From a virus: a stretch of DNA of 42,542 nucleotides. The position numbers and the translations under genes are program-made. The notes below the pieces were generated by a model. It made no database searches. It saw nothing but the letters and a program-made list of their open reading frames with translations, and had not been told where the DNA came from. Shown here in pieces: positions 5,013-31,301 of this stretch. The DNA lies in IMG/VR virus record IMGVR_UViG_3300008450_009256, positions 1 to 42,542 of that record. One strand, given 5' to 3'. Within the stretch, counting starts at the first letter, position 1, and each line of letters starts with the position of its first letter.

Positions 5013-6319
5013 GAGTTGAGCAGCGATGTCGGGAATGAGACGGCGCGGAAGGGAAAGGGCGGGTCGAGACGCGCCGCTTTCAGCGCCCTTGCAGCGGCGA
5101 TGCGCTTGGCCTGCAAGCGTGCTGCCTTGTTCCATCCGTTCGCCTGTTTCGACGCGACGGGCACCTCGGCGGGAAACTCGCTCGTGGAGCCGCCGCCGGT
5201 CGTCGTCCACCAACTGCCCGCCATCGAATGCGCGGTGAGCATGTTCAGCGCGTTCTGCGTGAGATCGTTTGCCGCCGCCGAGTAGTAATTGACCGCGAAC
5301 GATGCCACGCCGCCTGCGAGCGCCTGCCCGAGCGAGCCGAGTGCGCCGAGCGCGTTGTCGAGCTGCGGCACCTCCAGCGCGGTGCGCGCGAGATAGGTGA
5401 GGTTCCAGAAAAGCGAGTGCTGCACGTAGGGCACCCAGCGGACGTCCGGCTCACTGCCGGGCAGCGTGTCCGGCGGACTCACGAGATACACCGTCGCGAT
5501 GCGCCGCTCGTCCCACGTCGGCTCCTCGTAGTCGCCGAGCAGCGGATTGATGCCCGCCGCGTCCGGCGGAGTCCACAGCGGCGTGGCAAAGACCTTCAGC
5601 CGGTCGCCCGGCGCGGCGCTGCGCAGTCCGAGCGTCTGCGATGCGTTGCTGATGCCCGTGACCGGCCCGGCGCCGTAGGTGATCGTCGAGGTGAGCGCGA
5701 GCCGGGGCTGATGCAGCACGATGTCCGCCGCGCGCAGCAGCCGGTTGCCCTTGGGCTGAGCCTGCTCAAACGACGCCACCGCGGACTCCGCGTTCGTGAA
5801 GCCATCGGTCACCGGCGTGGAGGAAGCACTCACTCCGAGGCGCTGGAAGAATGACGGCACGCCCGTGCCGTTGCCGCCGCCGCTGTCAAAGCCGAGCGCG
5901 CGGAAGGGAAGCTGGATCGGCGGATTGTTGTAGAGCCGCACGTCGAGCGTTCCGGCCTCCGGCACGTCGCCGCTCTCCCGCGCCAGCTCCGCCGCGCGCG
6001 CAATGTCCGCCGCGCCGCTGCGTGCGGTGACGAGGCCGTTGTAGAAGCGGCCCGCGAGCGACTTCACCAGCGCCGAGCGCGTGCGCACGATCGGCGCTTT
6101 GCCGTTCACGAATCCGGCGCGCACCGTCGCCACCCATTGCTTGCGGTCGCCGAGCCACCACAGCGAGGTCTGCCACGGATGCTGCCATTCCTTTCCCTGC
6201 CCGAGCGCCACGCTGAAGCCGCCCGGCCCGCGCGTGAGCGTGGCATTCGTGCCAGCGCGCGGCACATCCGACTGAGCACTGAGCACTGAGGACTGAGCAC
6301 TGGGAAAAAACGCACCCAT
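5009..6319 (-). CDS. Tail-tip protein, hypothetical
   Basis: A 436-aa protein starting at the ATG at 6317-6319, chosen because the upstream gene ends at 6321 and because codons 5' of it are antiphase. The N-terminal region (about residues 6-17, SAQSSVLSAQS) is encoded by a heptamer tandem repeat of the type ACTGAGC at 6273-6302. A segment around LYNNPPIQLPFRALGFDSGGGNG and later Ala/Leu-rich stretches follow. The C-terminus is basic and ends FPTSLLNS. Position between tape-measure-proximal proteins and the large tail protein fits the tail-tip/initiator set of siphovirus-like Mu relatives. No named family was recognised. Confidence 0.55.
   Translation of the reverse strand: MGAFFPSAQSSVLSAQSDVPRAGTNATLTRGPGGFSVALGQGKEWQHPWQTSLWWLGDRKQWVATVRAGFVNGKAPIVRTRSALVKSLAGRFYNGLVTARSGAADIARAAELARESGDVPEAGTLDVRLYNNPPIQLPFRALGFDSGGGNGTGVPSFFQRLGVSASSTPVTDGFTNAESAVASFEQAQPKGNRLLRAADIVLHQPRLALTSTITYGAGPVTGISNASQTLGLRSAAPGDRLKVFATPLWTPPDAAGINPLLGDYEEPTWDERRIATVYLVSPPDTLPGSEPDVRWVPYVQHSLFWNLTYLARTALEVPQLDNALGALGSLGQALAGGVASFAVNYYSAAANDLTQNALNMLTAHSMAGSWWTTTGGGSTSEFPAEVPVASKQANGWNKAARLQAKRIAAARALKAARLDPPFPFRAVSFPTSLLNS
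6273..6302 (-). repeat. C-type heptamer tandem repeat at a gene start
   Basis: ACTGAGC, ACTGAGC, ACTGAGG, ACTGAGC, ACTG with period 7 (plus strand), read on the minus strand as codons 6-16 of the 436-aa tail protein (SAQSSVLSAQS). Partial copies occur at 32548-32560 and 37953-37965. Confidence 0.9.
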
Positions 6320-6320
6320 G

Positions 6321-6932
6321 TCAGTAAAAGAGATGCTGCGCCGATCCCTTGCCCGGCGCAGGCGTGGTGCGGTGATAGCGCAGGTTGAAGAACGTGACGG
6401 GATAGATGCGCGCAGGGCCGGACGTGCTCCACACGATGAGCGCGAGCGGATGCCGTCCCGTGGCCTGGCCAAAGAGCGTCGGCGCGTTGCGATGCACGAC
6501 CTCGATCGTCACGCCATCCGCCCGCGCGCCAGTCGCATCGGCGAGCTTGCCCTCCTTGGTCGGCGTCACTTCGAGGCACACCCAGCTTTCGAGCGCCTTC
6601 GTGGCCACTGCGCGATCCAGCCGCAGAGTCGGCGGACCAAGCCGCTTGGCCGGGTCGCCGGAAATCGGCGTCGCCCTGCCGCCCTCGGTGATCGTCGGCT
6701 CGTAGCCTTCGGCCACGTCCCCGATCACCACACCCTTCGCGAGGCGCACGCCATCCTTGCCGACTAGCGCCGGACGCCACGGATGCGCGAAGCTGCTGCC
6801 GCCGCTCGGCGATCCGCTGATCACGAATCCAAACGGCGTGCTTGCAAGCCGCGAGTTCACGCCCGGCTGCGGGCGCGAGGACGGCGTGCGCTTCGGCGCA
6901 TCATCAGGCGGTGGTGGCGGCGGGACGATCAT
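6321..6932 (-). CDS. Hypothetical tail protein with Pro-rich N-terminus
   Basis: A 203-aa protein. The start at 6930-6932 gives MIVPPPPPPDDAPKR and overlaps the upstream stop as ATGA; an earlier ATG in the same frame falls in the upstream gene. A Pro-rich N-terminal tail of about 25 residues precedes a compact domain with VVIGDVAEGYEPTITEGG and ATKALESWVCLEV. No named domain was recognised. Its place after the tape measure gene suggests a minor tail protein. The next gene begins 2 bases after its stop. Confidence 0.55.
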   Translation of the reverse strand: MIVPPPPPPDDAPKRTPSSRPQPGVNSRLASTPFGFVISGSPSGGSSFAHPWRPALVGKDGVRLAKGVVIGDVAEGYEPTITEGGRATPISGDPAKRLGPPTLRLDRAVATKALESWVCLEVTPTKEGKLADATGARADGVTIEVVHRNAPTLFGQATGRHPLALIVWSTSGPARIYPVTFFNLRYHRTTPAPGKGSAQHLFY

Positions 6933-7702: not shown

Positions 7703-8946
7703 TTGACGCTGTGGTCCTTCAGCCGGTTGGCACGATCCGTCTCATCCATCTTGGTCACGATGCGATCGAGCCGCTTCACCATCTCGCTTTCATTCGGCGT
7801 CACCTGTCCGCCCCAGCGCGCCGCCGCGGCGATGTCGCCCGCGCCGCTGCGCGCATCCACGAGCGATGCACCCGCCTTCACCTGCCGGTCGCGCAGGCTG
7901 TTCGTCATGTCGAGCTGCGCGGCTTCGTTCTGCTCCGCTTCCGACGCGCCCTGCCCGCGCATCTGCCGCTTCACGCCGCGCGCCTTCGCGAGGTAATCAT
8001 CCATGAACGCCTCGCGCGCGCCGGACTGCGTGCGCTTCGATCGCTGGCGCAACGCATCGAGGCCGAGCCCGCCCTCCTCGTTCGCGAATTTCTCGCGCTT
8101 CAGCGCACGCGCCGTCTCGATGTCCTCTTGGGTCTTCTTCTGCTTCTTGTCGTCTTCGGTGAGTTCGCGCTGGCTCTCCCACGTCTGCTTGTTGCCAAAC
8201 CACCGCAGCGGGTTATACCACCGACGCTCGCCCTTGCGCTCCAACTCGGCACGGTTGGCTGCGCGCTCTTCGGACTGCTGGGTCAGATCGTCCTCTTTCG
8301 ATTGCGCCTGCCCGGAGGTGCCGCGCACGCCGGCCATCACCCCAAACTCGTATTTGCTCATCCGCCGCGCCGCCTGGTCGCGCAGCTCGATGCCGCGGCG
8401 CTCATGCACATCCTTGGAAATCTCCTCCACGAGCTTGCCCACGGCCACCGCGCCGATTGCCGCGACTCCGGCCATCATCCCCGGCCCGGCCATTCCTGCA
8501 AGCGAGCCGATGCCGCCGCTCAGCGAACCGCCCTGCACGGCTTGCATCCCGAGATTCATGCCGATGCGACCGAAGCGCTGACGTTGCGTCTCCTCCTGGT
8601 GCATCTCCCGCTTCACGGCCCGCTCATCCGCTGCCGCAGCGCGGTCCTCGGCGCGCTGCGAGCGCAGGTGCCTGGCCTTCTCATCGCGGGCGGACTTCTG
8701 CTCCGCCTTCTCCTCCGCGAGGAATGGCCGCTCCAGTCGGTTTGCCTCGCGCTCCCGCGTGGTCGCCTCGGAGCGCGCGGACTTCGCGCGCGAATCCTCA
8801 AAGCCGTATTTCTCGGCATACTTGCCTGCGGCCTTCCGCAGGTCTTCCGCCTCGATGCGCAGCTCGTTGATCTTCGCCTTCGTGCGATCGAGCGCGCCGG
8901 TGTCGGCCTCGGCGCTGATGCGCAGCTTCACATTCTCCTCAGCCAT
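7699..8946 (-). CDS. Tape measure-like protein (short)
   Basis: A 415-aa protein. Residues about 20-130 are strongly charged and helical with long Glu/Arg/Lys runs consistent with coiled coil. A Gly/Ala/Met-rich hydrophobic segment follows at about 140-175 (GSLSGGIGSLAGMAGPGMM), then a further charged helical region to the C-terminus. This helical-hydrophobic-helical pattern and the place after the tail tube and chaperone-position genes are what identify tape measure proteins. It is short: many siphovirus tape measures exceed 800 residues, so the tail would be short if length scales as usual. Overlaps with both neighbours (7699-7702 and 8939-8946) indicate coupled translation. Confidence 0.65.
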   Translation of the reverse strand: MAEENVKLRISAEADTGALDRTKAKINELRIEAEDLRKAAGKYAEKYGFEDSRAKSARSEATTREREANRLERPFLAEEKAEQKSARDEKARHLRSQRAEDRAAAADERAVKREMHQEETQRQRFGRIGMNLGMQAVQGGSLSGGIGSLAGMAGPGMMAGVAAIGAVAVGKLVEEISKDVHERRGIELRDQAARRMSKYEFGVMAGVRGTSGQAQSKEDDLTQQSEERAANRAELERKGERRWYNPLRWFGNKQTWESQRELTEDDKKQKKTQEDIETARALKREKFANEEGGLGLDALRQRSKRTQSGAREAFMDDYLAKARGVKRQMRGQGASEAEQNEAAQLDMTNSLRDRQVKAGASLVDARSGAGDIAAAARWGGQVTPNESEMVKRLDRIVTKMDETDRANRLKDHSVK

Positions 8947-9529
8947 TGGATGCCTCCTTTTCTTCGTCCGGCATCACCGGCTGCAGCACGTCCCGCTGCG
9001 CGTAGCTCGCGCCGGAGGGCATCCAGCCGCGGTTGCGCTTGTCGGCGGCCAGCAGCGCGAACGCTTCACCCACCGGCGTGCTGCGCGCGTCGGTGCGCGA
9101 CATGCGGAGCTGCGCGATGAGTGCGGCGTAGATGGGCAGCCAGTCGCCGAAGCCACCGGAGAGGCTCATCGTGCCACCGCCATCGTCGCACGGCGGATTC
9201 ATCGGCAGCGACATCCCGAAGGCGGCGTCGATCGCATCGCGCATCATCACGCCCAGGCCCACGGCTTCCTCGGCGGAGAGATCCACCGGGCCGCAGGCAA
9301 AGGCATCCACCGCGTCGCTGATTTGCTCCGCCGTTTCGGGGAGCCTTCCCTCGATCAGCGGCGAAGAGCACGCATCGAGATCGATCCACGTCTGCATCGT
9401 GAAGACCAAGGCCCCCGCGCCCGGCGTGGCAAATGCACGCGCGATGCAGCGAGGCTGCCACGCACTTTGCTCCACCGCGGCAAGGTCCGCCGCGAGCGAG
9501 CGCAGTTGCTGTTCTTGGGCCTCAGTCAT
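8939..9529 (-). CDS. Putative tail assembly chaperone position protein
   Basis: A 196-aa protein between tail tube and tape measure, the usual place of the tail assembly chaperone. It is acidic in its N-terminal two thirds and contains ...MSLPMNPPCDDGGGTMSL and a C-terminal segment ending EEKEASNG. I see no programmed-frameshift site, so a G/GT-type arrangement is not supported. It overlaps the tape measure start by 8 bases. Its leader (9530-9566) is a heptamer tandem repeat that lies immediately before the ATG. Function is inferred from position. Confidence 0.5.
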   Translation of the reverse strand: MTEAQEQQLRSLAADLAAVEQSAWQPRCIARAFATPGAGALVFTMQTWIDLDACSSPLIEGRLPETAEQISDAVDAFACGPVDLSAEEAVGLGVMMRDAIDAAFGMSLPMNPPCDDGGGTMSLSGGFGDWLPIYAALIAQLRMSRTDARSTPVGEAFALLAADKRNRGWMPSGASYAQRDVLQPVMPDEEKEASNG

Positions 9530-9566
9530 TGGACGTTGGACGTTGGGCGTTGGGCGTTGGGCGTTG
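9530..9566 (-). repeat. B-type heptamer tandem repeat, leader of chaperone-position gene
   Basis: GGACGTT, GGACGTT, GGGCGTT, GGGCGTT, GGGCGTT with period 7 (plus strand). In the transcript it is CAACGCCCAACGCCCAACGC and touches the ATG at 9529. Confidence 0.9.
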
Positions 9567-9570
9567 CCGC

Positions 9571-10332
9571 TTAGTCGGTGTATGGCGGGATCCAGCTCGC
9601 GGAGATGGCGAACATCTTTCCGCGCGAATCTTCGAGCGTTTGCTCGCAGTCGGTGATCCGGTAGTCGCTCGCGTGTCCCGGTGCGCCGCCGATCGTCAGC
9701 ACGTCAGTCGGCGCGAGCGCGTCGCCGGTGGCCAGCAGCAAGAGCCGGATCATCCGCTCATACGCGTGCCCCTGCGCGCCGAGCAGCTTGCCGTCCGGCG
9801 AAGGCTCGTCATCGGTGAGCTGGAGGATCTGTTCGATCGTCAGCTCATGCACGATGCCTTCGGCGTGCGTGAGGCCGTGCGTCGAGTAGGTGAGCAGCCC
9901 GGCGGGGAACACGATGCCGATGCCATCCTGCGCCGGGGTGAACACGCTCAGCGTCGCCGCGGCGGCGGCCGTGTTCGTGCTCGGCATGTCCGGGTAGTGC
10001 GTGGCGGAGATGCTCGCGGTCTTCGGCTGCATGAGCCGCCACGTCTCGACCGCGCGGCTCACGAGCACCTGCCCGCCCGATACGCCGTCCACGGTGATGG
10101 CGCATCCGTCGCTGATGTCGAGGAAGTCCGTCGAGCCGCTCGTGATCTTCGCGGTGAACTGGATCGCGGCCTTCCGCGAGTGGAGCACCTGGGCGATGTT
10201 GTCGCCCGCGGCGCCGGTGATGTTCTGCTTGGTCACGCCGTCGCGGTAGCTGTAGCTCTGGCGTTCGCCGGTGAAGAGGGCGGGCGCGGAGAGCGGGCCC
10301 CAGATGATTGTTTGTCCGTAGCGGTTGCTCAT
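9571..10332 (-). CDS. Putative tail tube / major tail protein
   Basis: A 253-aa protein. Residues about 45-115 contain a beta-rich block (QFTAKITSGSTDFLDISDG ... VLVSRAVETWRLMQPKTASI) of a kind I associate with phage tail tube or tube-like proteins; the C-terminal part returns to beta strands with DYRITDCEQTLEDSRGK. Position between tail terminator and tape measure genes agrees. The gene is flanked upstream by a 70-base spacer containing an A-type heptamer array directly before the ATG and a hairpin at 10384-10418, and downstream by a B-type heptamer array, which may set its expression apart from neighbours. A baseplate protein is an alternative. Confidence 0.5.
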   Translation of the reverse strand: MSNRYGQTIIWGPLSAPALFTGERQSYSYRDGVTKQNITGAAGDNIAQVLHSRKAAIQFTAKITSGSTDFLDISDGCAITVDGVSGGQVLVSRAVETWRLMQPKTASISATHYPDMPSTNTAAAAATLSVFTPAQDGIGIVFPAGLLTYSTHGLTHAEGIVHELTIEQILQLTDDEPSPDGKLLGAQGHAYERMIRLLLLATGDALAPTDVLTIGGAPGHASDYRITDCEQTLEDSRGKMFAISASWIPPYTD

Positions 10333-10379
10333 GGTGAGTGGTGATTAGTGACTGGTGACTGGTGAGTGGTGACTGGTGG
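10333..10379 (-). repeat. A-type heptamer tandem repeat, leader of tail tube gene
   Basis: GGTGAGT, GGTGATT, AGTGACT, GGTGACT, GGTGAGT, GGTGACT with period 7 (plus strand), directly upstream of the ATG at 10332 on the minus strand. The sense strand is CA-rich. Confidence 0.9.
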
Positions 10380-10383
10380 CGAA

Positions 10384-10418
10384 GCCGCGTGGCCGCGTTT
10401 AACGCGGCTTTTACGCGG
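10384..10418. repeat. Interspersed palindrome, copy 1 (before tail tube gene)
   Basis: GCCGCGTGGCCGCGTTTAAC followed by GCGGCTTTTACGCGG folds as nested arms CCGCGT/ACGCGG and GCCGCG/CGCGGC. It contains the TAA of the gene ending at 10411. Same orientation and frame of parts as copies 2 and 3. Confidence 0.65.
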
Positions 10419-10908
10419 GGTTGTTGATCTGAAGGACTGCGTTGAAGACGACATCGGCGACGCGGAGGAACTTGCCGTCGTAGGGCATCCCGGCGGCGGA
10501 GGCCGTGCCCTCGATCATCTCGACGGGCCTGCGCGCGATCTGCAGCGGGTGTGCGAGGATGCCGGCGAGCGGATTGTCCTGCGCCTTCGGCTGCCAGTGG
10601 AGCGCGAGCGCGACGGCGTCAATCAGCTCGTAGGTATCCGCGCCGGTCGTGTTCATCTGCGGCAGCTCGATGATGCGCACGCGCACCTCGTAGCCGTCGA
10701 AGAACACGAAGGACACGCCCTGCACCGCGCTTGTCGGCACCGGTGGCATGACGAAGATGCACAGCCCATTCGTGACCGCCGCCCCGGCATCGAGGTCGCT
10801 CGCCATCTCCTTCTCACGCCGCTTGAGCACCGGCGCAGCGACCGGCAGCGCGCCCGGCGCTTCAAGCAGCGCAGCGATTGCGGACTGGATGTCGGCGGAG
10901 GCGTTCAT
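10411..10908 (-). CDS. Tail terminator / gp37-like completion protein
   Basis: A 165-aa alpha/beta protein: an N-terminal helix (ADIQSAIAALLEA), a strand region (GLCIFVMPPVP, FVFFDGYEVRVRIIELP), a helix (DTYELIDAVALALHW) and a final strand region. This order is usual for tail terminators and Mu gp37-like proteins that cap the tail or join it to the head. It sits between a fibre module and the tail tube gene. The stop codon TAA lies inside the left arm of the hairpin at 10384-10418. Family assignment rests on fold-like pattern and context. Confidence 0.5.
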   Translation of the reverse strand: MNASADIQSAIAALLEAPGALPVAAPVLKRREKEMASDLDAGAAVTNGLCIFVMPPVPTSAVQGVSFVFFDGYEVRVRIIELPQMNTTGADTYELIDAVALALHWQPKAQDNPLAGILAHPLQIARRPVEMIEGTASAAGMPYDGKFLRVADVVFNAVLQINNPA

Positions 10909-11433: not shown

Positions 11434-13926
11434 TTAGGGATAGTTGGAATACTTCCACTTGCGCACGCAGGTGCTCGTCATCACACGGTTGGTGCCGTCG
11501 TAACAAACGGCCGCAAATACGCCGAGTTGGGGCGACCATGTGATACCTGCCCAACTGTTCGCAGCGGCTGCACTGCGCGAAGTCCAAGTGATGCCGTCGG
11601 GCGAAGTCATCACCCGGTTGGTGCCAGATTCGGAGATGGCGCAAAAGATACCGAGTTCGGACGACCACGTGACGGCTACCCAACTGTTCGCGGCGGCTGC
11701 ACTGCGCGAAGTCCAAGTGATGCCGTCGGGCGAAGTCATCACCCGGTTGGTTCCGTCGCGCGACACAGCGCAGAATATACCGAGTTGGGGCGACCACGTG
11801 ACGGCTGTCCAAGTGTTCGCGGCGGCTGCGCTGCGCGAAGTCCAAGTGATGCCGTCGGGCGAAGTCATCACCAGGTTGGTGGCGGCGTCGCGCGCCACCG
11901 CGCAGAAGATGCCGAGTTCGGGCGACCACGTGACGGCTATCCAACTGTTCGCAGCGGATGCACTGCGGGCAGTCCAAGTGATGCTGTCGGGCGAAGTCAT
12001 CACCCGGTTGGTGCCGTCGCGCGCTACAATGCAGAAGATGCCGAGTTGGGGCGACCATGTGACGCCCCCCCAAGTGTTCGTTTCTGGCGTGCTGCGGGCG
12101 GTCCAAGTGATGCCGTCGGGCGAAGTCATCACCCGGTTGGCGCCGCTGAAGGCCACGGCGACAAACAAACCGCGCTCAGGCGACCACGCAATGTCATCCC
12201 AACTGCCAGAAGGGGTGCTGCGGGCAGTCCAAGTGATGCCGTCGGGCGAAGTCATCACCCGGTTGGTTCCATCTATAGCAACCGCACAAAGCAGCCCAAG
12301 CTCGGGCGCCCAGGCGATGCCTGCCCAGCTATTAGCTTCGGATGCACTGCGGGCAGTCCAAGTTGCGACGGCGCGGGTGGCTGCGCTGGCGAGGATTTGC
12401 CCACCCGTGGCCCCCGTGGCCCCCGTGGCACCCGTGGCACCCGTGGCCCCCGTGGCCCCCGTGGCCCCCGTGGCACCCGTGGCACCCTGCGGGCCTGTGA
12501 TGTTCAGCGCGAACGTCCACCCGCTCTCGTCGCGGTGGTAGAAGTTGCCATTGTTCAGATCGACGTAGCCATTGCCCTCCGAGCCGATGAGATTGGTCGG
12601 CGCTCCGTAGCCGCTGAGAAAGTCCACGGTGTCGCCGATGCCCTTGTAGCCAGCCGCATTCCCTAGTTCTTCGACATCGGTGACGAGGAATGTGCCGGGG
12701 GGCAGGCCGTCGTAGTCGGCTTGCGTGACGGCATACTCTGTCCACTCTGGGGGCACGCCTCCGCCTGGGGAGTTTTCGCGCAGCGCCCACGTTCCATCGC
12801 CGTTGTAGCCACCGGATGTGGGCAACAAGCCGAGCGTGCTGCTCGTGATGGTGACCACGTTGCCCGCTGCGCTGGCGGTGCAAGTCAATCCGCCGGAGTT
12901 GATCGCAGATGAGAGAGCAGACGCGGCGTCCTCTTTAGTCGCCCCGGCATTACCGAGCGAGCACCATGCGGTCGCGTTGTTCTCGTCGGTCAAGCCCAGC
13001 TCGTAATAGGTCGCGTTCGCTCCCTCCTGCGTGACCGCGAGCGTGGCGTCGGCCTGATTGTCGAGGCCGCCCGCATCGAGAGCCCATGCGCTGCCGAGTG
13101 CGCCGGGGCTGGAGCTGGTGATGGTGACCACCGCGCCGGTCGCGGTGGCGGTGCAATTCAGGCCAGCACCCGTGATGGCAGCCGCAAGCGCCGTGGCCGC
13201 GTCCGCAGCGGTCGCGCCGGCCGTGCCGAAGTCCACGAGTGCCTGCGAGGAATACTCGTCGCGGAAGGCGATGCCGTAACCGCCCGCGTCGGAAGGCACC
13301 GAAGCATTGAACGTGACGGTGGCGATGCGAGTCGCGAGCGTGGCGAGGATGTCGTCCGGGAAGGTGACGGTGGCGACACGGGGCAGCGAGTCGCCGCTTT
13401 GCGCAATGATGTCGCCGAGCTTCCAGCCCTCATGGTCGGCGGTGTAGCGGTTTGGCACGCTGCGGCGCACGATGCGCGCGAGCAGCAGCGCATCCACTTC
13501 GGCTTCGGTGTAGTAGTGCGGGCCGCTCTGGCTGTTCGGGTCGGAGGGGATGACGCGCGATTGCACCGGCACGGTGAAGGACGGCGCGACCTGCATCTCG
13601 CCGGCCACCGTCCACGCGACTTCGCAGCCCATGTTCACGGTGCCCTTGCCCGCCATGAATGCGACCAGGCGCTCGTCGTTTGCGTCGAGCACGCCGGTGA
13701 AAGTGTGAGTGTTCTCGGCATCGAACTCGTCGAGATACGCCTTGAGCACAGGCGGCGTGGCATCGGTGCCGAGGCCCAGCTCAAATGCGGGCGATGCGCC
13801 GGGCGAGGTCGGGGTCGCACCGCGCGTCGTGGTGATCGTCACCGGCACGCTGGCTCCGGCTTTGATCGTGATGGCGCTCGCGAGCTTCGCGAGGCCGGTG
13901 TCGAGATCGAGGGTGATGTTCAGCAT
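11434..13926 (-). CDS. Fibre with collagen-like stalk and seven-repeat propeller
   Basis: An 830-aa protein starting at ATG 13924-13926 (the upstream stop is at 13929; earlier codons are antiphase). Order: N-terminal attachment module (about 1-130); two tandem alpha/beta repeats (about 190-400) each with ...AAITGAGLNCTATATGAVV-type motifs; a linker with GPQGATGATGATGATG-type collagen-like triplets (about 500-530); then seven repeats of about 43 residues with consensus SW..(I/V)(A/T)WSP.LG.FCAVA.DGTNRVMTSPDGITWT(A/S)RS. Seven short beta-repeats of this kind usually close into a seven-bladed propeller, often a glycan-binding head. Role: host recognition. It is encoded between head-completion and tail genes rather than at the operon end, so a head fibre is possible. 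Confidence 0.75.
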   Translation of the reverse strand: MLNITLDLDTGLAKLASAITIKAGASVPVTITTTRGATPTSPGASPAFELGLGTDATPPVLKAYLDEFDAENTHTFTGVLDANDERLVAFMAGKGTVNMGCEVAWTVAGEMQVAPSFTVPVQSRVIPSDPNSQSGPHYYTEAEVDALLLARIVRRSVPNRYTADHEGWKLGDIIAQSGDSLPRVATVTFPDDILATLATRIATVTFNASVPSDAGGYGIAFRDEYSSQALVDFGTAGATAADAATALAAAITGAGLNCTATATGAVVTITSSSPGALGSAWALDAGGLDNQADATLAVTQEGANATYYELGLTDENNATAWCSLGNAGATKEDAASALSSAINSGGLTCTASAAGNVVTITSSTLGLLPTSGGYNGDGTWALRENSPGGGVPPEWTEYAVTQADYDGLPPGTFLVTDVEELGNAAGYKGIGDTVDFLSGYGAPTNLIGSEGNGYVDLNNGNFYHRDESGWTFALNITGPQGATGATGATGATGATGATGATGATGATGGQILASAATRAVATWTARSASEANSWAGIAWAPELGLLCAVAIDGTNRVMTSPDGITWTARSTPSGSWDDIAWSPERGLFVAVAFSGANRVMTSPDGITWTARSTPETNTWGGVTWSPQLGIFCIVARDGTNRVMTSPDSITWTARSASAANSWIAVTWSPELGIFCAVARDAATNLVMTSPDGITWTSRSAAAANTWTAVTWSPQLGIFCAVSRDGTNRVMTSPDGITWTSRSAAAANSWVAVTWSSELGIFCAISESGTNRVMTSPDGITWTSRSAAAANSWAGITWSPQLGVFAAVCYDGTNRVMTSTCVRKWKYSNYP
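11455..12365 (-). repeat. Seven ~129-bp direct repeats inside the fibre gene
   Basis: The propeller repeats are also repeated as DNA. The core GTGATGCCGTCGGGCGAAGT (plus-strand reading) begins at 11588, 11717, 11846, 11978 (with one change), 12107 and 12233, spaced 126-132 bp, with a diverged seventh unit ending near 12365. Spacing is always a multiple of three, so unit gain or loss would preserve the frame. Similarity is strongest around the MTSPDGITWT coding part. Confidence 0.9.
12405..12490 (-). repeat. Collagen-like triplet repeat in fibre gene
   Basis: Consecutive 9-bp units reading (plus strand) GTGGCCCCC or GTGGCACCC encode Gly-Ala-Thr triplets on the minus strand. Near-identical tandem units of this kind are prone to slippage in multiples of three residues. 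They form the stalk between the N-terminal part and the propeller. Confidence 0.85.
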
Positions 13927-14516: not shown

Positions 14517-15919
14517 TCGATGCCCTCCGTCATGGCCTTCATCCGCGCGCGGTGAACGGCCTGCACTTGCGTGGCGCGCGAGATCCGTTCGTCGCGCACG
14601 GCGCGCTGCGTGGCCTCGTGCTGCGCCTGCGTGCGGTCGAGGAATGCGCGATCGGTGCCGGTGTTCAGCTCGCGCTCCAGCTCGGCGCGCAGGTCGGGTG
14701 AAAGTTTCTCGAATGCGGCGCGCACTTCCCTCTCGCCGGGCGAGAGCTGTGCATCGGTGCGGCGCGGCGATTCATCGCCGGTGATGAGGCCGAGCGAGAC
14801 GCACCGGTCGCGGCGCACGGGCTGCCACGCCATGCCGCTGCGGAATGCGAAGGGCGGGTATGGATTGCCGAGCGTGTCTGTGTAGTCGCCCGCGCCGTCG
14901 CCGAGCGCCTGCCAGATGGGTGAGTCTTTGCGAGCCACCATGTCCGGCACGGCGCGCACGCGCTCCAGCACGCCCTCGTCATTCACGGCCTCCGCGGCAT
15001 CCGCCCAGCGCTGCGGCCAGCCGATGCTCTTGCTCTCCGGCGATCCGCGCGGCACGTCGCGCACAAAGCGCCGCACCAGCTCCCAGGCGGGATAGGCGCG
15101 CAGCGCGTAGGGCGTGTTGCCCGCGAGATGCTGCGCGTAGTTCGAGGCCATGCGCACATTCGTCTCGATGATGAGATCGAGCCGCTGCGTGCTGGAAAGG
15201 TCTTGCAGCGAACCGGCCTCGGCGGGCGGGATGTTCGCCATGTCGCCGGGGAAGCCGAGCATCGGATCGTAGCCGAGCTGCTTGAGCTTGCGCTGCAAGA
15301 CCCAGCGGCCCTGCGCCATGTTCGTCTTGCCCGCGAGGATGTCATCCACGGCCGTCGCGACTTCGCTGAGGAATTCCGCATTCGTCACGCGGGCGGAGAA
15401 GATCGAACGGTTCAGCAGCTCGCGGGAGAAGCCGCGCAGCTCCGCGCTGCCGAGGTCCGTCTCGAAGACTTCACGCGAGCGCCACTGCTTGAGGGCCGAG
15501 GTCACGGTCGGCTCGCTGTCCACCGTCACGGCGTTGGCCGTCTGTGACTGGTCGCTGGCGTTTCCGGTGCGTTCGAGCACCGAAGGATCCGCTACGGCCG
15601 CGGCCATCGCGCGGGCCAGCTCCGCGCCGAGCGCTGGCTTCCGGTTCGCTTCGCGCAGCAGAAAGGGGAGCATCTTGCGCAGGTGTCCCAGGGCTTCGGT
15701 ACTGCCATCGTGCAGCGCCGTTGCAATCGCGCTGCGCACGCCCTGCATGTCGTCTTCCCAGGACTTCGCACAGTCCGCCGCAAACTCATGCCCGTCGTCC
15801 TGCGCCGCGTTCGCGGTGCGAAGCTGCGCGAGCAGTGCCGCGGCCTCGGCGCGCGCGGCGGGCGTCATCAGCGGCAGGGCGATTGACGCGATGGACAAGA
15901 TGGACGGACGGATGCTCAT
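14513..15919 (-). CDS. Minor head protein, Mu gpF / SPP1 gp7-like
   Basis: A 468-aa protein. The C-terminal half has the family landmark RLDLIIETNVRMASNYAQ (about residue 246 on), followed by PAWELVRR, DSPIWQALGDGAGDYTD and YPPFAFRSGMAW, which corresponds to the T-N-x-R ... D-x-x-W ... PP-x-x-x-x-C/S-x-C pattern of head morphogenesis proteins. These join the portal and scaffold during procapsid assembly. The first 150 residues are helical and Ala-rich. Unlike Mu, where F lies between portal and protease, this gene comes after the major capsid and gp36-like genes. It overlaps both neighbours by 4 bases. Confidence 0.65.
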   Translation of the reverse strand: MSIRPSILSIASIALPLMTPAARAEAAALLAQLRTANAAQDDGHEFAADCAKSWEDDMQGVRSAIATALHDGSTEALGHLRKMLPFLLREANRKPALGAELARAMAAAVADPSVLERTGNASDQSQTANAVTVDSEPTVTSALKQWRSREVFETDLGSAELRGFSRELLNRSIFSARVTNAEFLSEVATAVDDILAGKTNMAQGRWVLQRKLKQLGYDPMLGFPGDMANIPPAEAGSLQDLSSTQRLDLIIETNVRMASNYAQHLAGNTPYALRAYPAWELVRRFVRDVPRGSPESKSIGWPQRWADAAEAVNDEGVLERVRAVPDMVARKDSPIWQALGDGAGDYTDTLGNPYPPFAFRSGMAWQPVRRDRCVSLGLITGDESPRRTDAQLSPGEREVRAAFEKLSPDLRAELERELNTGTDRAFLDRTQAQHEATQRAVRDERISRATQVQAVHRARMKAMTEGIE

Positions 15920-16362
15920 AGCCCGCTGGTCCTCCTGCGCCCGGTGAGGCGCGGCTCCACGTTCACTGCGGCAATCTTCATGCCCGTCTCGCTCACGCTG
16001 GCCTCGCTCTCCGGATCGTCGGCGCGTTCGACCTTCGTCTTGTTGTCCGAGATCGTCTGCAGCTCCTTGCGCGCATCGCGGACCTCATCCGTCATCGCGG
16101 TGGTGAGCGGGATCGGAATGCGGCCCGCGAGCGTGGCGATGGCGAGCAGCACGGCGACATCTTCTAGGCTGCCGGGGATCTTCGTCGCGTCGGCATCGAG
16201 CACATTGCCCGGCGCGACCGCACGCCGCACGCGCGCCGTCACCTTCACGATCGCCTGGTCAACCGGATCAATGCCACCCACGGCCGCCGTGCGGGCGCGA
16301 TCGATGATCGCGCCGTGTCCGGCGGCCTTGAGGTGATCGGCAGTGATGGTGATCCAGCGCAT
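15916..16362 (-). CDS. gp36-like head completion / connector protein (DUF1320-like)
   Basis: A 148-aa helical protein. Segment DQAIVKVTARVRRAVAPGN followed by LEDVAVLLAIATLAGRIPIP and a long charged helix (DEVRDARKELQTISDNKTKV) fits the Mu gp36 (DUF1320) group, connector proteins encoded just after the major capsid. An A-type heptamer array (16370-16402) lies in its leader 8 bases before the ATG, preceded by a strong hairpin that separates it from the capsid gene. It overlaps the F-like gene by 4 bases. Confidence 0.6.
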   Translation of the reverse strand: MRWITITADHLKAAGHGAIIDRARTAAVGGIDPVDQAIVKVTARVRRAVAPGNVLDADATKIPGSLEDVAVLLAIATLAGRIPIPLTTAMTDEVRDARKELQTISDNKTKVERADDPESEASVSETGMKIAAVNVEPRLTGRRRTSGL

Positions 16363-16369
16363 CGGGAAG

Positions 16370-16402
16370 GTGATTGGTGACTAGTGACTGGTGATTGGTG
16401 GG
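16370..16402 (-). repeat. A-type heptamer tandem repeat, leader of gp36-like gene
   Basis: Plus-strand units TGATTGG, TGACTAG, TGACTGG, TGATTGG repeat with period 7. In the minus-strand transcript the array is CA-rich (CCAATCACCAGTCACTAGTC) and lies just before the start codon at 16362. Confidence 0.85.
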
Positions 16403-17482: not shown

Positions 17483-17518
17483 GTGTGTCTGATTCGTGGT
17501 TGTGTGTGTGGTGGCAAA

Positions 17519-17545
17519 GCCGCGTGGGCGCTTCGCCTTTACGGC
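17519..17545. repeat. Interspersed palindrome, copy 2 (before capsid gene)
   Basis: GCCGCGTGGGCGCTTCGCCT ending in TTACGGC: nested arms GCCG/CGGC and GGCG/CGCC. It overlaps the TAG of the gene ending at 17545 and precedes a CA-rich capsid leader. Related copies are at 10384-10418 and 34743-34772. Confidence 0.6.
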
Positions 17546-18207: not shown

Positions 18208-18212
18208 GGTCG

Positions 18213-18242
18213 TGATTGGTGACTGGTGATTGGTGACTGGTT
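18213..18242 (-). repeat. A-type heptamer tandem repeat, leader of decoration gene
   Basis: Plus-strand units TGATTGG, TGACTGG, TGATTGG, TGACTGG with period 7, a few bases upstream of the ATG at 18207 on the minus strand. The sense strand is CA-rich. Confidence 0.85.
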
Positions 18243-18517: not shown

Positions 18518-18568
18518 TGGTGTGTGGTCTGTTGGTGTGTTGGTTTGCTCTTTCTGTGGTGCTCAGGC

Positions 18569-22144: not shown

Positions 22145-23784
22145 AGCATCCCTCCGATTTGCCGGCCCATCGCCGCGCCGCGCCCGGTGCGGTCGTTGCC
22201 CCGGATCGCGACGCTGCTGCCGACCGCCGCGCCCGGCGCGTGCAGGCCGTATTCCGCGGCCCCGCCGCTGGCGAAGCTGTCGCCGTGCGCGCCGTCGCTG
22301 CTGTCGGGCGTGCATTCGTAGCGGCCCGCGTTCTTCACCGTCATCCGTTGGTCCTTCTTGAAGTATTCGCCGCCCGGCAGCGCGTAGCGGTTCTCATTCA
22401 CCGCGGCGCTGTAGAGGTCGCCGAGGAAGGTCTTGAAGTTGATCGTGTCCTGGTAGCCGGCGGGCTGGGGCTCCACGTTCTGACTCTCGATGATGAGCCG
22501 CACGGGGACGATCGCGCGGAGGTCGTCCGCCACGAGGTCGGCAAAGTAGCGCTCGCTGGTGGCGAGGATGTTCAGCGACATGGCCGCGCCGCCTTCCGGG
22601 CGGCGTGCAATCGCCATGCAAAGCCGGCGCAGGCGATCCATCACCACGGCCGCCTTGCGTTCCTTCCAGAAAAGCACGAGCCGCTGTGCGCGATCGCCGC
22701 CGGTCTGTTCGGTGATCGTCACAGCGGTCGGGTTGCTCGTGGCCTTCGTGGTGGTCGCCGGGTCCATGCCGATGGAGACGCGTCCGCCGCGGAGGTTCGC
22801 CGCGAGCGCGGAGAGCGCGCGCTGGAAGTCCACCTCGTCGTCAATGAACGCGCAATGGCATTGCCCGATGCCGCGCTGTTGCGCCGTGAGCATCGCGAGA
22901 AGGTCGATGGCCGCGGTGCCGCCGCTGATATGGAGGAGATCGTAGTTGTAGGGGAGCTGCCCTTTGTTGCCCGGCTCGCTGCGGAATTCCTCGATCGTCA
23001 TCGGCTCACCCCGGTTGTCGTAGAGCACGTGGCCGGCCTCGTAGGCATCCGCCAGCGCGACGCGGTGAATGAGGATGCGGTTCTCGCCCCGGTAGAAGTG
23101 GCCCTTCGCGTCCGGCGCGAAGTCGGCATCCGGCGGCGGCATCGTCATCGTGAAGAACGGATGCCGGTCATCGCGGCAGAGGTTGCTCGCGTAGATCATC
23201 TTCAGGTCCGGCACGTCGCGGAAGATGGGGTCCACCGCCTCGCGCAGGGCGAGTTCGAGATTCACCGGCGTGAAGCCCGCCTCGTCGCGCAGCACCGTGC
23301 CGCGCCAGCCGCGCGCCGTCGCCGGAACGGGTGCAATCACGAGCTGGCGGCTGTAGCTCGTCTTGTCGAAGTAGAGGCGCATCTCCAGACGCTTGCTCTT
23401 GTAGAGATCCGCGAAGTCCTCGCGAGTGAGCGTGCCGTATTCCTTGCCGCTCTCGGCGTCGGCACACTTGAAGTCGAGCTTTCCCGCCTCCGCCTGCGCG
23501 GTGAAGAGGCTCTGCTGTGCCTCGGCTTCGTTCTGCACGAGGATGGCCGCTTCAATCGCGCTCACGCTCATGTTAATGAGTTCCGTGCCGAGCAGCAGCG
23601 ACGCGCTCGCGGCGATCACGGTCTGCCCCGGTGCCTTGCTCATCTCGTCAAAGGCAATCGCGCCGAGGTTCGTGCTCTTGCGGCAGCGCCGTGCCCAAAA
23701 CATCACGACGACGCGTTCCTTCCGCACCGCTGCGAGCAGTTGCTTCTCGTATTCGCGACGGCCGCCGGTGCGCTGGTGGATCAT
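22141..23784 (-). CDS. Terminase large subunit, Mu gp28-like
   Basis: A 547-aa protein; the ATG at 23782-23784 overlaps the small terminase stop, and codons further upstream are antiphase. ATPase: a degenerate Walker A around residues 31-38 (ARRCRKST) and Walker B GTVLRDEAG (162-170, D167-E168). Nuclease: RNase H-like strand RVSIGMDPATTT with D341, and acidic CAFIDDEVDF (311-320). It cuts and pumps DNA into the prohead; in Mu relatives packaging starts in phage DNA and runs into host DNA. Followed by a 40-aa ORF and the portal gene with overlapping stop/start codons. Confidence 0.8.
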   Translation of the reverse strand: MIHQRTGGRREYEKQLLAAVRKERVVVMFWARRCRKSTNLGAIAFDEMSKAPGQTVIAASASLLLGTELINMSVSAIEAAILVQNEAEAQQSLFTAQAEAGKLDFKCADAESGKEYGTLTREDFADLYKSKRLEMRLYFDKTSYSRQLVIAPVPATARGWRGTVLRDEAGFTPVNLELALREAVDPIFRDVPDLKMIYASNLCRDDRHPFFTMTMPPPDADFAPDAKGHFYRGENRILIHRVALADAYEAGHVLYDNRGEPMTIEEFRSEPGNKGQLPYNYDLLHISGGTAAIDLLAMLTAQQRGIGQCHCAFIDDEVDFQRALSALAANLRGGRVSIGMDPATTTKATSNPTAVTITEQTGGDRAQRLVLFWKERKAAVVMDRLRRLCMAIARRPEGGAAMSLNILATSERYFADLVADDLRAIVPVRLIIESQNVEPQPAGYQDTINFKTFLGDLYSAAVNENRYALPGGEYFKKDQRMTVKNAGRYECTPDSSDGAHGDSFASGGAAEYGLHAPGAAVGSSVAIRGNDRTGRGAAMGRQIGGML

Positions 23785-24398
23785 GCCGGCAGCTCCACTT
23801 TGGTTGCATCCACGTCCGCAAAGTATGCCCTGCGGATGGCCGCGATCTTCTCCGCCTGCGGGATCGTGCTCTCGGCGATCTCCGTCACCTTCTCGCGCAG
23901 TGTCCTGTCGAGCAGCTTCGCCGCCGTCTGCTCCTCGAACTTCTCCCGATCCAGCGAGAGCTTGAGCAGCGCGATTTGCTGATCCTTCTTCTTCAGCTCC
24001 GCCTTCGTGCGCGCGGACTCGTCCGCGATCATCAGGTAGCGGGCCTGCTGATAGTCCTCGTGTTTGTCGTCCGCTGCGAAGATCTCCGCCATCCGGCGAT
24101 CCAGCGCGGCCATTCGCTGCTGGGGTGTGTAGCCTTTCTCCTGTGCCTCGGACTCGATCTGCTCCAGTGCCTTCGCCCGCACGCGGTCCCGGCGTTCCTC
24201 GCTCTCCCAGAATGCCAGCGCCGCATAGAGCGCCGACTTCCCGCACTCGATGTGGAGCTGTGTGGCAATCCGCTGCAAGCACGCCTGCCAGCCATCCGAT
24301 TGCAGCCAGCCAGCCACGAGCCTGCGATCCTTTTCGGGCAGGCCGAGGAGCTTCGCGTCGCGTCGGGGTTTGCGTGGGAATTTGGGATTGGCACTCAT
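23781..24398 (-). CDS. Terminase small subunit, Mu gp27 / DUF3486-like
   Basis: A 205-aa, mostly helical, charged protein directly upstream of the large terminase with a 4-base overlap. N-terminal basic part (KFPRKPRRDAKLLGLPEKDR) and an early helix-turn-helix candidate (QRIATQLHIECGKSALYAAL) fit DNA recognition; the remainder is coiled coil (KAELKKKDQQIALLKLSLDR), as in small terminases that oligomerise. Assigned by position and pattern to the Mu gp27-like group. Its leader (24403-24438) is a B-type heptamer array immediately before the ATG. Confidence 0.65.
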   Translation of the reverse strand: MSANPKFPRKPRRDAKLLGLPEKDRRLVAGWLQSDGWQACLQRIATQLHIECGKSALYAALAFWESEERRDRVRAKALEQIESEAQEKGYTPQQRMAALDRRMAEIFAADDKHEDYQQARYLMIADESARTKAELKKKDQQIALLKLSLDREKFEEQTAAKLLDRTLREKVTEIAESTIPQAEKIAAIRRAYFADVDATKVELPA

Positions 24399-24402: not shown

Positions 24403-24438
24403 TGGACGTTGGGCGTTGGGCGTTGGGCGTTGGACGTT
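24403..24438 (-). repeat. B-type heptamer tandem repeat, leader of small terminase
   Basis: Plus-strand units GGACGTT, GGGCGTT, GGGCGTT, GGGCGTT, GGACGTT with period 7. In the minus-strand transcript this reads CAACGCCCAACGCCCAACGT and ends 4 bases before the ATG at 24398. Confidence 0.9.
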
Positions 24439-24444
24439 GCGGGT

Positions 24445-27222: not shown

Positions 27223-27296
27223 GCTCCCGATGGCCCGCAGAATTGCAGCGCGGTGAGGGGACTTAGAGGGCGGAAATGAGCGGGGATTGCTGCCAG
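27206..27296 (-). promoter_or_regulatory. Presumed late-operon promoter region
   Basis: This 91-bp spacer lies between the end of the repressor operon and the first gene of the 27-kb late operon, so a late promoter is expected here. I see no convincing -35/-10 pair, which would fit a promoter that needs an activator. Inference from position only. Confidence 0.3.
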
Positions 27297-27851
27297 TCAC
27301 TTCTCACCAGTCACCGCGGGGGAATGTGACTGGTGACTGGTGAAAGGTGACTGGTGTTCAGCGCCGCTTCGCCTCGCGTTTGCGCGCCTCGTCGCCGCTT
27401 TGATCGCGGCACGTCCCGCATGAGCCCTTGCCCGTCTTCGGGTGGCAATACTTGCACGCGCTGCAATCCCGGCACACCGGGCACGGATCCTTGCCCGTGC
27501 AGCGCCGCCCGCTCCCCGGCCCGCCCGCGCTGCATAGCGCGTGCAGTGCGAGGGAAACGAGGATGCAGAGGGTGCGGTGCATTCCTGGGATGCCGGAGGA
27601 AGCCCGCGCAACTTGCGCTGCGCCTCATCGCGGAGCTTGATCAGGTCCATTTCCCGCAGGTGATTGTCGTAATTGTAAACGCCGAGCATTCCTCCCCAGA
27701 GGATGACCCACACGATGATGAATGGCCTCTTGCTCCGGCAAAAGAACCAGGCAATCAATCCAGCGATGATTCCCGTGACGACGGCAGCGCCTGCAAGATC
27801 GGCTTCGCCATCGTGGATGACGGTTACGGCTGCTAGTGCTATTGCGATCAT
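27297..27851 (-). CDS. Membrane protein; C-terminal half doubtful
   Basis: A 184-codon frame whose ATG overlaps the stop of the RHH gene (27848-27851). Residues 1-65 look real: AGAAVVTGIIAGLIAWFF and RPFIIVWVILWGGMLGVYN are two membrane segments, followed by a charged helix (REMDLIKLRDEAQRKLRG). Beyond residue ~90 the sequence is Arg/Ala-rich low complexity, lies antiphase to the Cys-rich ORF at 27358-27582, and ends in heptamer-encoded HQSPFTSHQSHSP. Either two genes overlap, or the membrane protein once stopped earlier. The membrane part may act in superinfection exclusion or lysis control; this is a guess from its place in the repressor operon. Confidence 0.5.
   Translation of the reverse strand: MIAIALAAVTVIHDGEADLAGAAVVTGIIAGLIAWFFCRSKRPFIIVWVILWGGMLGVYNYDNHLREMDLIKLRDEAQRKLRGLPPASQECTAPSASSFPSHCTRYAARAGRGAGGAARARIRARCAGIAARASIATRRRARAHAGRAAIKAATRRANARRSGAEHQSPFTSHQSHSPAVTGEK
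27304..27336. terminator. Hairpin built from opposed A-type heptamers
   Basis: TCACCAGTCAC (27304-27314) and GTGACTGGTGA (27326-27336) pair over 11 bp with an 11-base loop. Further heptamer units flank both arms (27293-27357). It lies just downstream of the Cys-rich ORF and may end the repressor operon before the late operon. Confidence 0.5.
27358..27582 (-). CDS. Small Cys-rich protein with signal peptide, nested ORF
   Basis: A 74-aa ORF in a different frame inside the distal half of the 27297-27851 frame. MHRTLCILVSLALHALCSAG is signal-like. Eight cysteines follow, in DPCPVCRDCSACKYCHPKTG and KGSCGTCRDQ, a CxxCxxCxxC-type array suggesting disulfides or metal binding. It ends REAKRR. The Cys spacing looks selected, whereas the overlapping frame is low complexity, so this is more likely the real product of this stretch. 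Nested signal-bearing ORFs recall spanin pairs, but the lipobox is poor. Confidence 0.5.
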   Translation of the reverse strand: MHRTLCILVSLALHALCSAGGPGSGRRCTGKDPCPVCRDCSACKYCHPKTGKGSCGTCRDQSGDEARKREAKRR

Positions 27852-28688: not shown

Positions 28689-28891
28689 TCCGGCGCACTG
28701 CATCCTTTTTCCGTGCGCTGATGGCGCAGGCGCCCGCGCTGGTGATTCCCTTCGGCGATGGCGAGCCGCGGCTCGTGCCGGCAGATCGCGTGGCCGCGGT
28801 GACGAGCGGCATCATCACGCTGTCCCCCTTCGCGATCTTCCTCCTCGAAGTGCGCTTCATCTGGGAACGTCTGAACGGAGGCGCACGATGA
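28685..28891 (+). CDS. Hypothetical small early protein
   Basis: A 68-aa protein overlapping both neighbours by 4 bases. N-terminus MIRRTASFFRALMAQAPAL, a central VTSGIITLSPFAIFLLEVRF that could be a short membrane or buried segment, and a C-terminus WERLNGGAR. No family was recognised. Existence is supported mainly by the exact stop/start overlaps. Confidence 0.5.
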   Translation: MIRRTASFFRALMAQAPALVIPFGDGEPRLVPADRVAAVTSGIITLSPFAIFLLEVRFIWERLNGGAR

Positions 28892-29439
28892 GCGCGACGC
28901 AACTGCCGGATCTTCGGGAGCTGATGGAAGACGTGCGCATTCACACTGTCTCGCTGCGTGCGAAGTGCCAAGAGCTGGAGGCCGCGCTGCTGGCGGACCT
29001 CGCGGCTGGCGAGGCGGCGTGGGCCGAGTTGGAGAATGAGCGGGATGCGGCCTTGGCGCGGATCGCAGAGCTGGAAGCCAGTCACCAGTCACCAGTCACC
29101 AATCACATCGGCGACGCCGGCGTGAACACGCAGAGCGCGGAGGATCGCGAATACAATTCCTACCTCGATTGGACGTGCGAGCACGGGCTGCCGGCGCTGA
29201 GCATCGAGCAGTGGCGCGAGGTGGAGACGAGCGTGGCGTCGCAGGATGCGGCGCGCGGGCTGCACGCGGACTTCGACCTGTATCGCGAGGGGAATGGCGA
29301 GCAGGGATTTCCCGCGGTGCCGCTGGAGAAATTCACGGCGGGCTGGCTGCGCATCAAGCACGGCGGGCTGTCGCCTGCGCAGGCGCGCGAGCTGATGGCC
29401 GAGATCGAGAGCGAGCACTTTTGCCGCACGGCACTTTGA
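28888..29439 (+). CDS. Hypothetical early protein with heptamer-encoded insert
   Basis: A 183-aa protein. Residues 1-63 form a charged helix or coiled coil (ELMEDVRIHTVSLRAKCQEL to ARIAELEA). Residues about 64-71 (SHQSPVTNH) are encoded by an A-type heptamer array, read through in frame. The C-terminal 110 residues form a separate acidic domain (EYNSYLDWTCEHGLPALS, AGWLRIKHGGLSPAQARELM). No family was recognised. The heptamer insertion looks like a linker gained between two existing parts. Confidence 0.5.
   Translation: MSATQLPDLRELMEDVRIHTVSLRAKCQELEAALLADLAAGEAAWAELENERDAALARIAELEASHQSPVTNHIGDAGVNTQSAEDREYNSYLDWTCEHGLPALSIEQWREVETSVASQDAARGLHADFDLYREGNGEQGFPAVPLEKFTAGWLRIKHGGLSPAQARELMAEIESEHFCRTAL
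29077..29106 (+). repeat. A-type heptamer tandem repeat within a coding region
   Basis: Four units of CCAGTCA/CCAATCA with period 7 are read in frame as SHQSPVTNH. The sense strand is the CA-rich one, the same orientation bias as in the leader copies. Confidence 0.85.
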
Positions 29440-30298: not shown

Positions 30299-30300
30299 AC

Positions 30301-30816
30301 ATGATCACCGCCGCACCCACATCCCAGGCGCAGGGCGCGCAGCTCGATTTCCTCTCGGCGCTGTTTCAGCCGATGGTGAACGTCCAGGCTGCGGCTTCGA
30401 TGCTCGGATGCAGCGTGCAGCATGTCGTGCGCATGGCGGAGGCTGGCGAGCTGGTGGCGTTTAATGTCGCGGTGGAAGTGGAGCGCGGCGACGAGGCGGT
30501 GGATGAGCGCGCGAAGGAGCGGATGCTGCGCATCCTACTGCAGAGCGTGCTTCGCCTCGCGCTGCCTGCGGCGCGCGGCAAGTGCGCGGTGCCCACAGTC
30601 GCGCAGGCGATGGACAGCGCGAGGATGCGCGACCCGTGGACGCGCCGCGAGATCGCACACTTTCTCGACTGCTCGGATGACCATGTGCGCCGCCTCACGG
30701 AGGCGAGGCTGCTCACCGGCCCGCTCCTCACGCAGACCGGCAGCGGCCGGCTGCAACACATTTCCCGCGCGTCGCTCGGCGCGTTCCTCACCGCCCGCGA
30801 CCTCTCGAACCTCTGA
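30301..30816 (+). CDS. Protein with two excisionase/MerR-like helix-turn-helix domains
   Basis: A 171-aa protein. Two winged-helix-like segments: residues about 27-58 (VQAAASMLGCSVQHVVRMAE AGEL in two parts) and about 118-150 (TRREIAHFLDCSDDHVRRLT). Each has the A-A-x-x-L-x-C-S/D-x-x-x-V-x-R pattern of excisionase/MerR-type DNA-binding motifs. It probably binds DNA as a bidentate regulator or transposition accessory factor. It is one of three consecutive helix-turn-helix proteins upstream of the transposase; targets are unknown. Confidence 0.6.
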   Translation: MITAAPTSQAQGAQLDFLSALFQPMVNVQAAASMLGCSVQHVVRMAEAGELVAFNVAVEVERGDEAVDERAKERMLRILLQSVLRLALPAARGKCAVPTVAQAMDSARMRDPWTRREIAHFLDCSDDHVRRLTEARLLTGPLLTQTGSGRLQHISRASLGAFLTARDLSNL

Positions 30817-30821
30817 ACCCC

Positions 30822-31301
30822 ATGAGCCTGAACTACGAAGAACCCGCAGTCACCACCCCGCTGCACGAGCATCTCGCGCAGGCTCCGGCGCAGCGCGAGA
30901 TGAGCTTTGAGACGCAATCCGAAGCAAGCCCGGCGAAGACGCTGCGCGTGCGCGAGGATGCCGCCAGGCTGGAGGGGCTGTTGCGCACCGCGTGGATCGG
31001 CGGGATGCCGTGGATGAGCGCGGCGCAGATCGGCGGGCGGCTCGGATGGAATGAGCGCCGTGTGCGCGACGCGGCGAGCGAAAGCCTCGCCATCGCAAGC
31101 GGTCCCGGCTCGCCCGGCTACGCGCTCGCGGAGGCCGCGACGCCCGAGGCGCTCATGCACATCGGCAACGCGATGAAGTCGCAGGGCGAGCGCATGTTTG
31201 CCCGAGGCCAGCGATTCGTGACGGCAGCGCTGCTGCGCACGAAGGCCGCGGAAATCACCGCACCAGTCACCAGTCACCAGTCACCAGTCACCTCCCTCTG
31301 A
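30822..31301 (+). CDS. Winged-helix-like DNA-binding protein
   Basis: A 159-aa protein. The central part (about 47-90: EGLLRTAWIGGMPWMSAAQI, GGRLGWNERRVRDAASES) fits a winged helix with an IGGRLGWNERRVRDA recognition element, followed by a wing-like GPGSPGYALAEAAT. The last residues (PVTSHQSPVTSL) are encoded by a heptamer array which at the same time forms the leader of the next gene. Position in the early operon suggests replication or transposition control. The stop overlaps the next ATG (TGATG). Confidence 0.55.
   Translation: MSLNYEEPAVTTPLHEHLAQAPAQREMSFETQSEASPAKTLRVREDAARLEGLLRTAWIGGMPWMSAAQIGGRLGWNERRVRDAASESLAIASGPGSPGYALAEAATPEALMHIGNAMKSQGERMFARGQRFVTAALLRTKAAEITAPVTSHQSPVTSL
31261..31292 (+). 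repeat. A-type heptamer tandem repeat before HTH gene
   Basis: More than four units of CACCAGT with period 7, ending 8 bases before the ATG at 31301. It encodes the C-terminus of the preceding protein and serves as leader for the next. The CA-rich strand is in sense. Confidence 0.9.

Follow-up and report, generated by a model that had tools for sequence, protein, structure and literature searches.

Tandem heptamer repeats as possible Shine-Dalgarno-independent leaders of genes in a Mu-like phage

Heptameric tandem repeats have been noted in bacterial genomes for decades and, to our knowledge, no function has been agreed upon for them. The viral DNA analyzed here, a 42.5-kb virus record from IMG/VR that we call the window (G+C 66%, coding density about 0.92), carries a series of such arrays, some of them directly in front of start codons. 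Do they help the phage to start translation, as the initial annotation of this DNA suggested, or do they merely occupy the borders of its genes?

The window belongs to the Mu-like transposable phages, having the MuA transposase, MuB ATPase and Mu-type portal by which such phages are recognized. The portal was identified by a profile match (Portal_Mu, PF06074, 7.7e-29), and a MuA-like gene (32570-34717) and a MuB-like gene (34801-35790) lie in tandem; both features are common to this type of phage. Further matches were to the DNA transposition protein phrog_296 (1.6e-13) and, weakly, to the transposase phrog_310 (8.8e-5). A head maturation protease is also encoded, and the gene at 16454-17482 is major-head-like by a weak match (4.7e-4). 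Unlike other Mu-like phages, this one additionally has, alongside its transposition genes, a tyrosine integrase gene (39125-40111; PF00589 with an N-terminal SAM-like domain). Its tail-fibre-like gene (11434-13926) contains a 129-bp repeat in 5.8 copies and CCCGTGGCC in 9.3 copies (repeats at 11522-12267 and 12404-12487). A megablast-level search of INPHARED with positions 20000-42000 of the window revealed no related phage DNA, and a MuB query against viral contigs found no relative.

Seven arrays of period 7 were found by a strict criterion and nine by TRF, the additional two being the imperfect arrays at 16369 and 27326. Under the same strict criterion, periods 4, 5, 6, 10 and 11 gave no array in the window, and 50 first-order Markov resamples of it gave none of period 7. 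These are bacterial heptamer tandem repeats of the STRR type: the 7-bp unit exceeds chance, other periods are not enriched, and every array apart from that at 29078 is located at a gene junction or in a gap. The units, read on one strand, are CACCAGT (type A), CAACGYC (type B) and CTCAGTG (type C). The initial annotation had the coordinates, the period and the three unit types right; missing from its list of leaders were the array at 27326-27356, with its inverted partner, and a type A array on the plus strand within an open reading frame (29078-29106, in ORF 28888-29439).

Six arrays of types A and B stand just before gene starts, on both genome strands. On the minus strand, a type B array (CAACGCC/CAACGTC) at 9529-9566 overlaps gene 8939-9529 by one letter, its last A being also the first letter of the ATG; a type A array (CACCAGT and variants) at 10332-10378 abuts the ATG of gene 9571-10332; type A arrays at 16369-16400 and 18212-18241 end 6 nt before the ATG of a head-tail adaptor-like gene (15916-16362) and 4 nt before that of gene 17545-18207; and a type B array at 24403-24439 is separated by 4 nt from the ATG of gene 23781-24398. 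On the plus strand, a type A array at 31261-31292 ends 8 nt before the ATG of a gene for an HTH DNA-binding protein (31301-31789). A search for GGAG or GAGG before these six starts found neither, and in all six cases the CA-rich strand is the sense strand, so that both the absence of a Shine-Dalgarno (SD) sequence and the strand rule are borne out for every leader that had been named. On its own, such a result from a single genome (six out of six, p = 0.03) carries little weight. The gene starts are predictions; for four of the six genes the start position is kept in orthologues (76-84% identical) of a relative, G001, whose aligned DNA is about 80% identical. The type C array on the minus strand at 6271-6302 (CTCAGTG in the sense direction), which lies upstream of or overlaps the start of gene 5009-6286, was rejected as a leader of this kind: it is not CA-rich, and in relatives type C precedes genes in both orientations.

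How, then, could ribosomes recognize such starts? In seven related contigs, we compared spaced junctions (a gap of at least 15 nt) with those of overlapping or close cistrons. SD sequences precede 6 of the 113 starts at spaced junctions (control 3/113), in contrast to 43 of the 114 at overlapping or close ones (control 7/114). The difference is highly significant across the seven contigs (Fisher 1.3e-9), although some of these are orthologous to each other and the rows are therefore not all independent; it persists in the window and G001 alone (p = 0.0008). The frequency of SD sequences at close junctions indicates that the phage does use them, namely for cistrons whose ribosome-binding region falls within the preceding gene or adjoins it. 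The spaced leaders have a distinctive composition (C 0.41, A 0.27, G 0.19, T 0.14 in the seven contigs), and it extends, as had been claimed, to SD-free leaders that contain no repeat at all. Examples in the window are 17483-17517 on the minus strand, in front of the major-head-like gene, whose leader is CA-rich and repeat-free in G001 and G239 as well; 18518-18552 on the same strand, in front of gene 18251-18517; and, on the plus strand, 34772-34800, which follows a palindrome (34741-34771) and precedes the MuB-like gene.

Predicted folding separates these leaders from coding sequence. From -35 to +15 around the start, the mean minimum free energy (MFE) is -3.1 kcal/mol for leaders with an array, -8.0 for those without one and -14.9 for coding sequence, which makes the array-bearing leaders the least structured class. 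Five copies of CACCAGT fold with 0.0 and of CAACGCC with -0.8 kcal/mol, as against -13.5 and -13.3 for their complements; over all five-copy A and B units the predicted range is 0 to -4.5 kcal/mol in the CA-sense and -13 to -15 in antisense. The suggestion that the leader repeats are unstructured is thus upheld by prediction, and it is this difference in predicted RNA folding between the two strands that could account for the strand preference of the A and B arrays. On these calculations the leaders are of the SD-independent, unstructured kind, with no SD sequence above background and low predicted structure at the start codon. Such leaders have precedents: initiation without an SD sequence is reported to be permitted by the absence of local structure (PMC3121790), and ACA motifs enhance translation in enterics (PMC3879156). 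Like those sequences, the phage leaders are CA-rich and weakly folded at the start codon; the published ones are unique sequences of characterised genes, whereas here tandem arrays would supply such a sequence.

It is also conceivable that the arrays act by forming structure, either as hairpins of inverted pairs that would serve as terminators or processing sites or as G-quadruplexes on the G-rich strand. The window does contain an inverted pair of type A sequence (27305-27356), in a 642-bp non-coding gap, with a strong predicted hairpin (27290-27370, MFE -39.9 kcal/mol, z -5.6), and G008, a MAG of Verrucomicrobiota in which each of the three families of units occurs, has eight convergent and eight divergent inverted pairs, some of the convergent ones followed by T runs. 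The leader arrays, however, occur singly, and most of their bases are predicted to be unpaired. For quadruplexes the precedent lies in the chromosomal heptamers of Xanthomonas (GGGAATC) and Nostoc (GGGGA(C/T)T), whose G-rich strand is reported to be the antisense one in the 50 bp preceding ORFs and which are favored as G-quadruplex candidates (PMC4692102). Those repeats share with ours the arrangement of heptamer arrays between aligned ORFs, the C-rich strand in the sense direction and the occurrence of inverted pairs, but they are chromosomal and of a unit suited to quadruplexes. The GGGCGTT form of type B could in principle form them too; type A and CAACGTC units, in contrast, have no run of three Gs on either strand. 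Runs of at least three Gs in at least four units of one strand were not found: GGG occurs in GGGCGTT only, and no array in the window has four successive GGGCGTT units uninterrupted by GGACGTT. With GGG confined to one unit subtype, we rejected the quadruplex as a common cause, and consider a structural role of either kind very improbable.

The divergent pairs of G008 flank a REP-like element of about 80 bp (GCCCCGCGCAGCGGC..GCGCCTGCGGCGGGCC) and comprise several unit types (L162, L164, L169, L177, L178, L179). Another element recurs at phage gene ends. It is a palindrome of the form CCGCGTAAA..stem..CACGCGG, present in the window at 10379-10417 and 34741-34771 and also in G239, G240, G246, G247 and G008; one form occurs 10 times in the latter genome. 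The first copy (CCGCGTAAAAGCCGCG..CGCGGCCACGCGG, minus strand, about 10379-10418) provides with its TAA the stop codon of gene 10411-10908, and its stem is predicted to lie upstream of a single-stranded type A array. As in the window (10411), the TAA also terminates the preceding gene in G239 (21562) and G240 (2460). At the MuA-MuB junction (34718-34800), two copies of CCCAAACACCCAAACCCTG flank the palindrome, as if the leader had been duplicated.

The strongest alternative to a function in translation is passive tolerance: chromosomal arrays would persist at gene borders as filler, in the least harmful orientation, whose RNA neither folds nor brings in stop codons or additional start codons, and would enhance nothing. 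Orthologous junctions bear on this question. In the window, a type A array leads into gene 15916-16362; at the same junction G239/L205 have an array of type B, and G001 has a plain CA-rich sequence, AAGCCAAACACCACCACACC, the encoded proteins being 31% and 84% identical, respectively, to that of the window. At the site of the array at 18212, L140/G001 have a degenerate form of the type A array. At 9529 the window is longer than G001 by 24 nt, the extra sequence being the type B array, which is absent from G001; at 10332 the junction measures 78 nt in the window (palindrome plus type A array) and 3 nt in G001. At orthologous junctions, then, the composition of the leader is kept and its sequence is not. 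That CA-rich sequence of a different origin has taken the place of an array at one junction is less readily explained by passive filling, as is the CA-rich and SD-free character of leaders that have no array. The proposal that the repeats spread by duplication proved too simple: there are gains at two junctions, but one arrived joined to a palindrome, and the ends of the arrays are phased. Of 27 phage type B arrays, 21 have AACG as their first letters and 13 have AA as their last, and for this reason we rejected slippage from arbitrary phases as a complete explanation.

In the close family (the window, G239/L205, G240 and L017), the distinct A and B junction arrays, deduplicated by hand and counted without L018 and G246, whose gene calls are doubtful, number 15 in the CA-sense and one in the G-sense; when the three that are translated are set aside, the ratio is 12:1. 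More distant phages show an independent trend: arrays no more than 41 nt away from a start are CA-sense in 12 cases and G-sense in 7, in contrast to 2 and 15 for arrays further away (p 0.002, with paired arrays in G257 that are not independent). Arrays of types A and B inside ORFs of the phage panel are likewise mostly CA-sense, which would be expected if the G-sense were purged from any transcript, and the TGGTGAC strand of type A gives TGA stops in every frame; type B, on the other hand, has no stop codon in either orientation. Some phage arrays are simply translated (G239 10113 and 18012; window 29078 and 31261), and this, like the lack of any orientation rule for type C, counts against the leader account. 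The array at 31261-31292 also encodes the C terminus of ORF 30822-31301, which lies upstream; if inverted, the array would introduce TGA stops into that ORF. On this evidence, passive tolerance is a serious alternative, though on balance an unlikely one. In G239, type B arrays at 10113-10149 and 18012-18048 are translated near N termini, each after a good SD sequence, as Arg-Pro-Thr-Ser-Asn-Val-Gln repeats.

Outside the phages the strand rule breaks down. The initial annotation had staked its interpretation on a genome-wide orientation bias, and the Verrucomicrobiota chromosomes contradict it: in G008 the arrays near starts occur in both orientations without bias (9:5), and in four other genomes of its order (G149-G153) type B within 40 nt of a start is about 25 times G-sense and 4 times CA-sense. 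In these last genomes (L322-L361) no type B array was found in a convergent gap. Chromosomal arrays before starts being mostly of the opposite orientation, the arrays as such are not leaders. The leader interpretation holds for this phage family, with its SD-less and CA-rich starts, its 15:1 orientation and its replacements, and fails as a general rule. In other phyla too, a general orientation rule for CACCAGT was rejected, the arrays near starts being mixed (CA 6, G 10). Arrays of four CACCAGT units are present in many cyanobacterial genomes, and the STRR heptanucleotide repeats of filamentous cyanobacteria resemble ours as period-7 tandem arrays in intergenic DNA, but the cyanobacteria sampled have no such start-codon rule.

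The same chromosomes suggest where the phage lives. Its host phylum is probably Verrucomicrobiota, because G008 holds the unit families and the palindrome and because a genome of the same order, G068, encodes a portal 57% identical to that of the window. Type B arrays occur in 56 of the 213 genomes of this order, and the palindrome of the type seen at phage gene ends (CGCGTAAAAGGGC..GCCCTCACGCGG), present in G008, in 3 of the 213. A portal match was sought in G008 and none was found; G068 had no array in the 391 kb sampled and was rejected as their source. Some Verrucomicrobiota are SD-scarce with an intact anti-SD (PMC10783764), which fits a host in this phylum.

The nearest published parallel is that of the marine Beggiatoaceae, where direct repeats of TAACTGA lie near SD-less starts and a translational hypothesis has been put forward (MacGregor 2015, PMC4679880). 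There, as here, heptamers mostly of one orientation end a few nucleotides from starts without an SD sequence; this pattern is found for the six arrays of the window and at 15:1 in the close family, and not in the related chromosomes. The TAACTGA unit itself was not found, the units here being CACCAGT, CAACGYC and CTCAGTG. Furthermore, the Beggiatoaceae repeats are chromosomal and of a single A/T-rich unit, whereas ours are in phages, have several interchangeable C/A-rich units and take the opposite orientation in related chromosomes. The TAACTGA repeats also offer a precedent for another reading, in which a regulator that binds RNA or DNA would recognize the arrays as multi-copy sites and so coordinate the downstream genes. 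Several identical units precede functionally diverse genes in both phage and chromosome, and the phased ends are what such sites might show; but unrelated units or plain CA-rich sequence substitute for one another at orthologous starts, and relative to the gene the arrays are not oriented in the phage as they are in chromosomes. We regard a regulator as improbable.

The reading that we somewhat favor is that chromosomal repeats have been co-opted in this phage as interchangeable, unstructured, SD-independent leaders. Heptamer repeats of the kind found in Verrucomicrobiota chromosomes would have come to occupy the gene junctions of a Mu-like phage, where a cistron spaced from the preceding one has a leader without an SD sequence. 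A stretch rich in C and A that folds only weakly and precedes the ATG would allow the 30S subunit to load at the exposed start codon, and type A or B arrays in the CA-sense could supply such a stretch interchangeably with CA-rich sequence that is not repeated. Because the CA-sense arrays are predicted to leave the RNA unfolded where the usual ribosome-binding signal is lacking, they probably help ribosomes to start; such features would then increase translation and may have been favored by selection for that effect. A broader and much more tentative proposal, which we consider doubtful at present, is that the heptamers are portable, sequence-unspecific ribosome-loading modules, which the phage collects and keeps in the orientation that replaces an SD sequence, some forming a cassette with a stop-codon palindrome, the other orientation being retained in related cells, where it would serve another purpose.

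Two of these features have been published before: repeats in front of starts that lack an SD sequence, in Beggiatoaceae, and a preference for the C-rich strand as sense, in Xanthomonas and Nostoc. Our literature search found no paper on phage heptamer leaders, and four features appear to be new: that the arrays are in a phage, that units replace one another at orthologous junctions, that related chromosomes differ in orientation, and that arrays are combined with a stop-codon palindrome. In the phage, the strand rule is explained by predicted RNA structure. A phage in which different units serve at the same gene start, and in which the strand rule is reversed relative to related cells, allows the leader idea to be tested directly, and the answer would bear on how translation starts in SD-poor bacteria, such as some Verrucomicrobiota.
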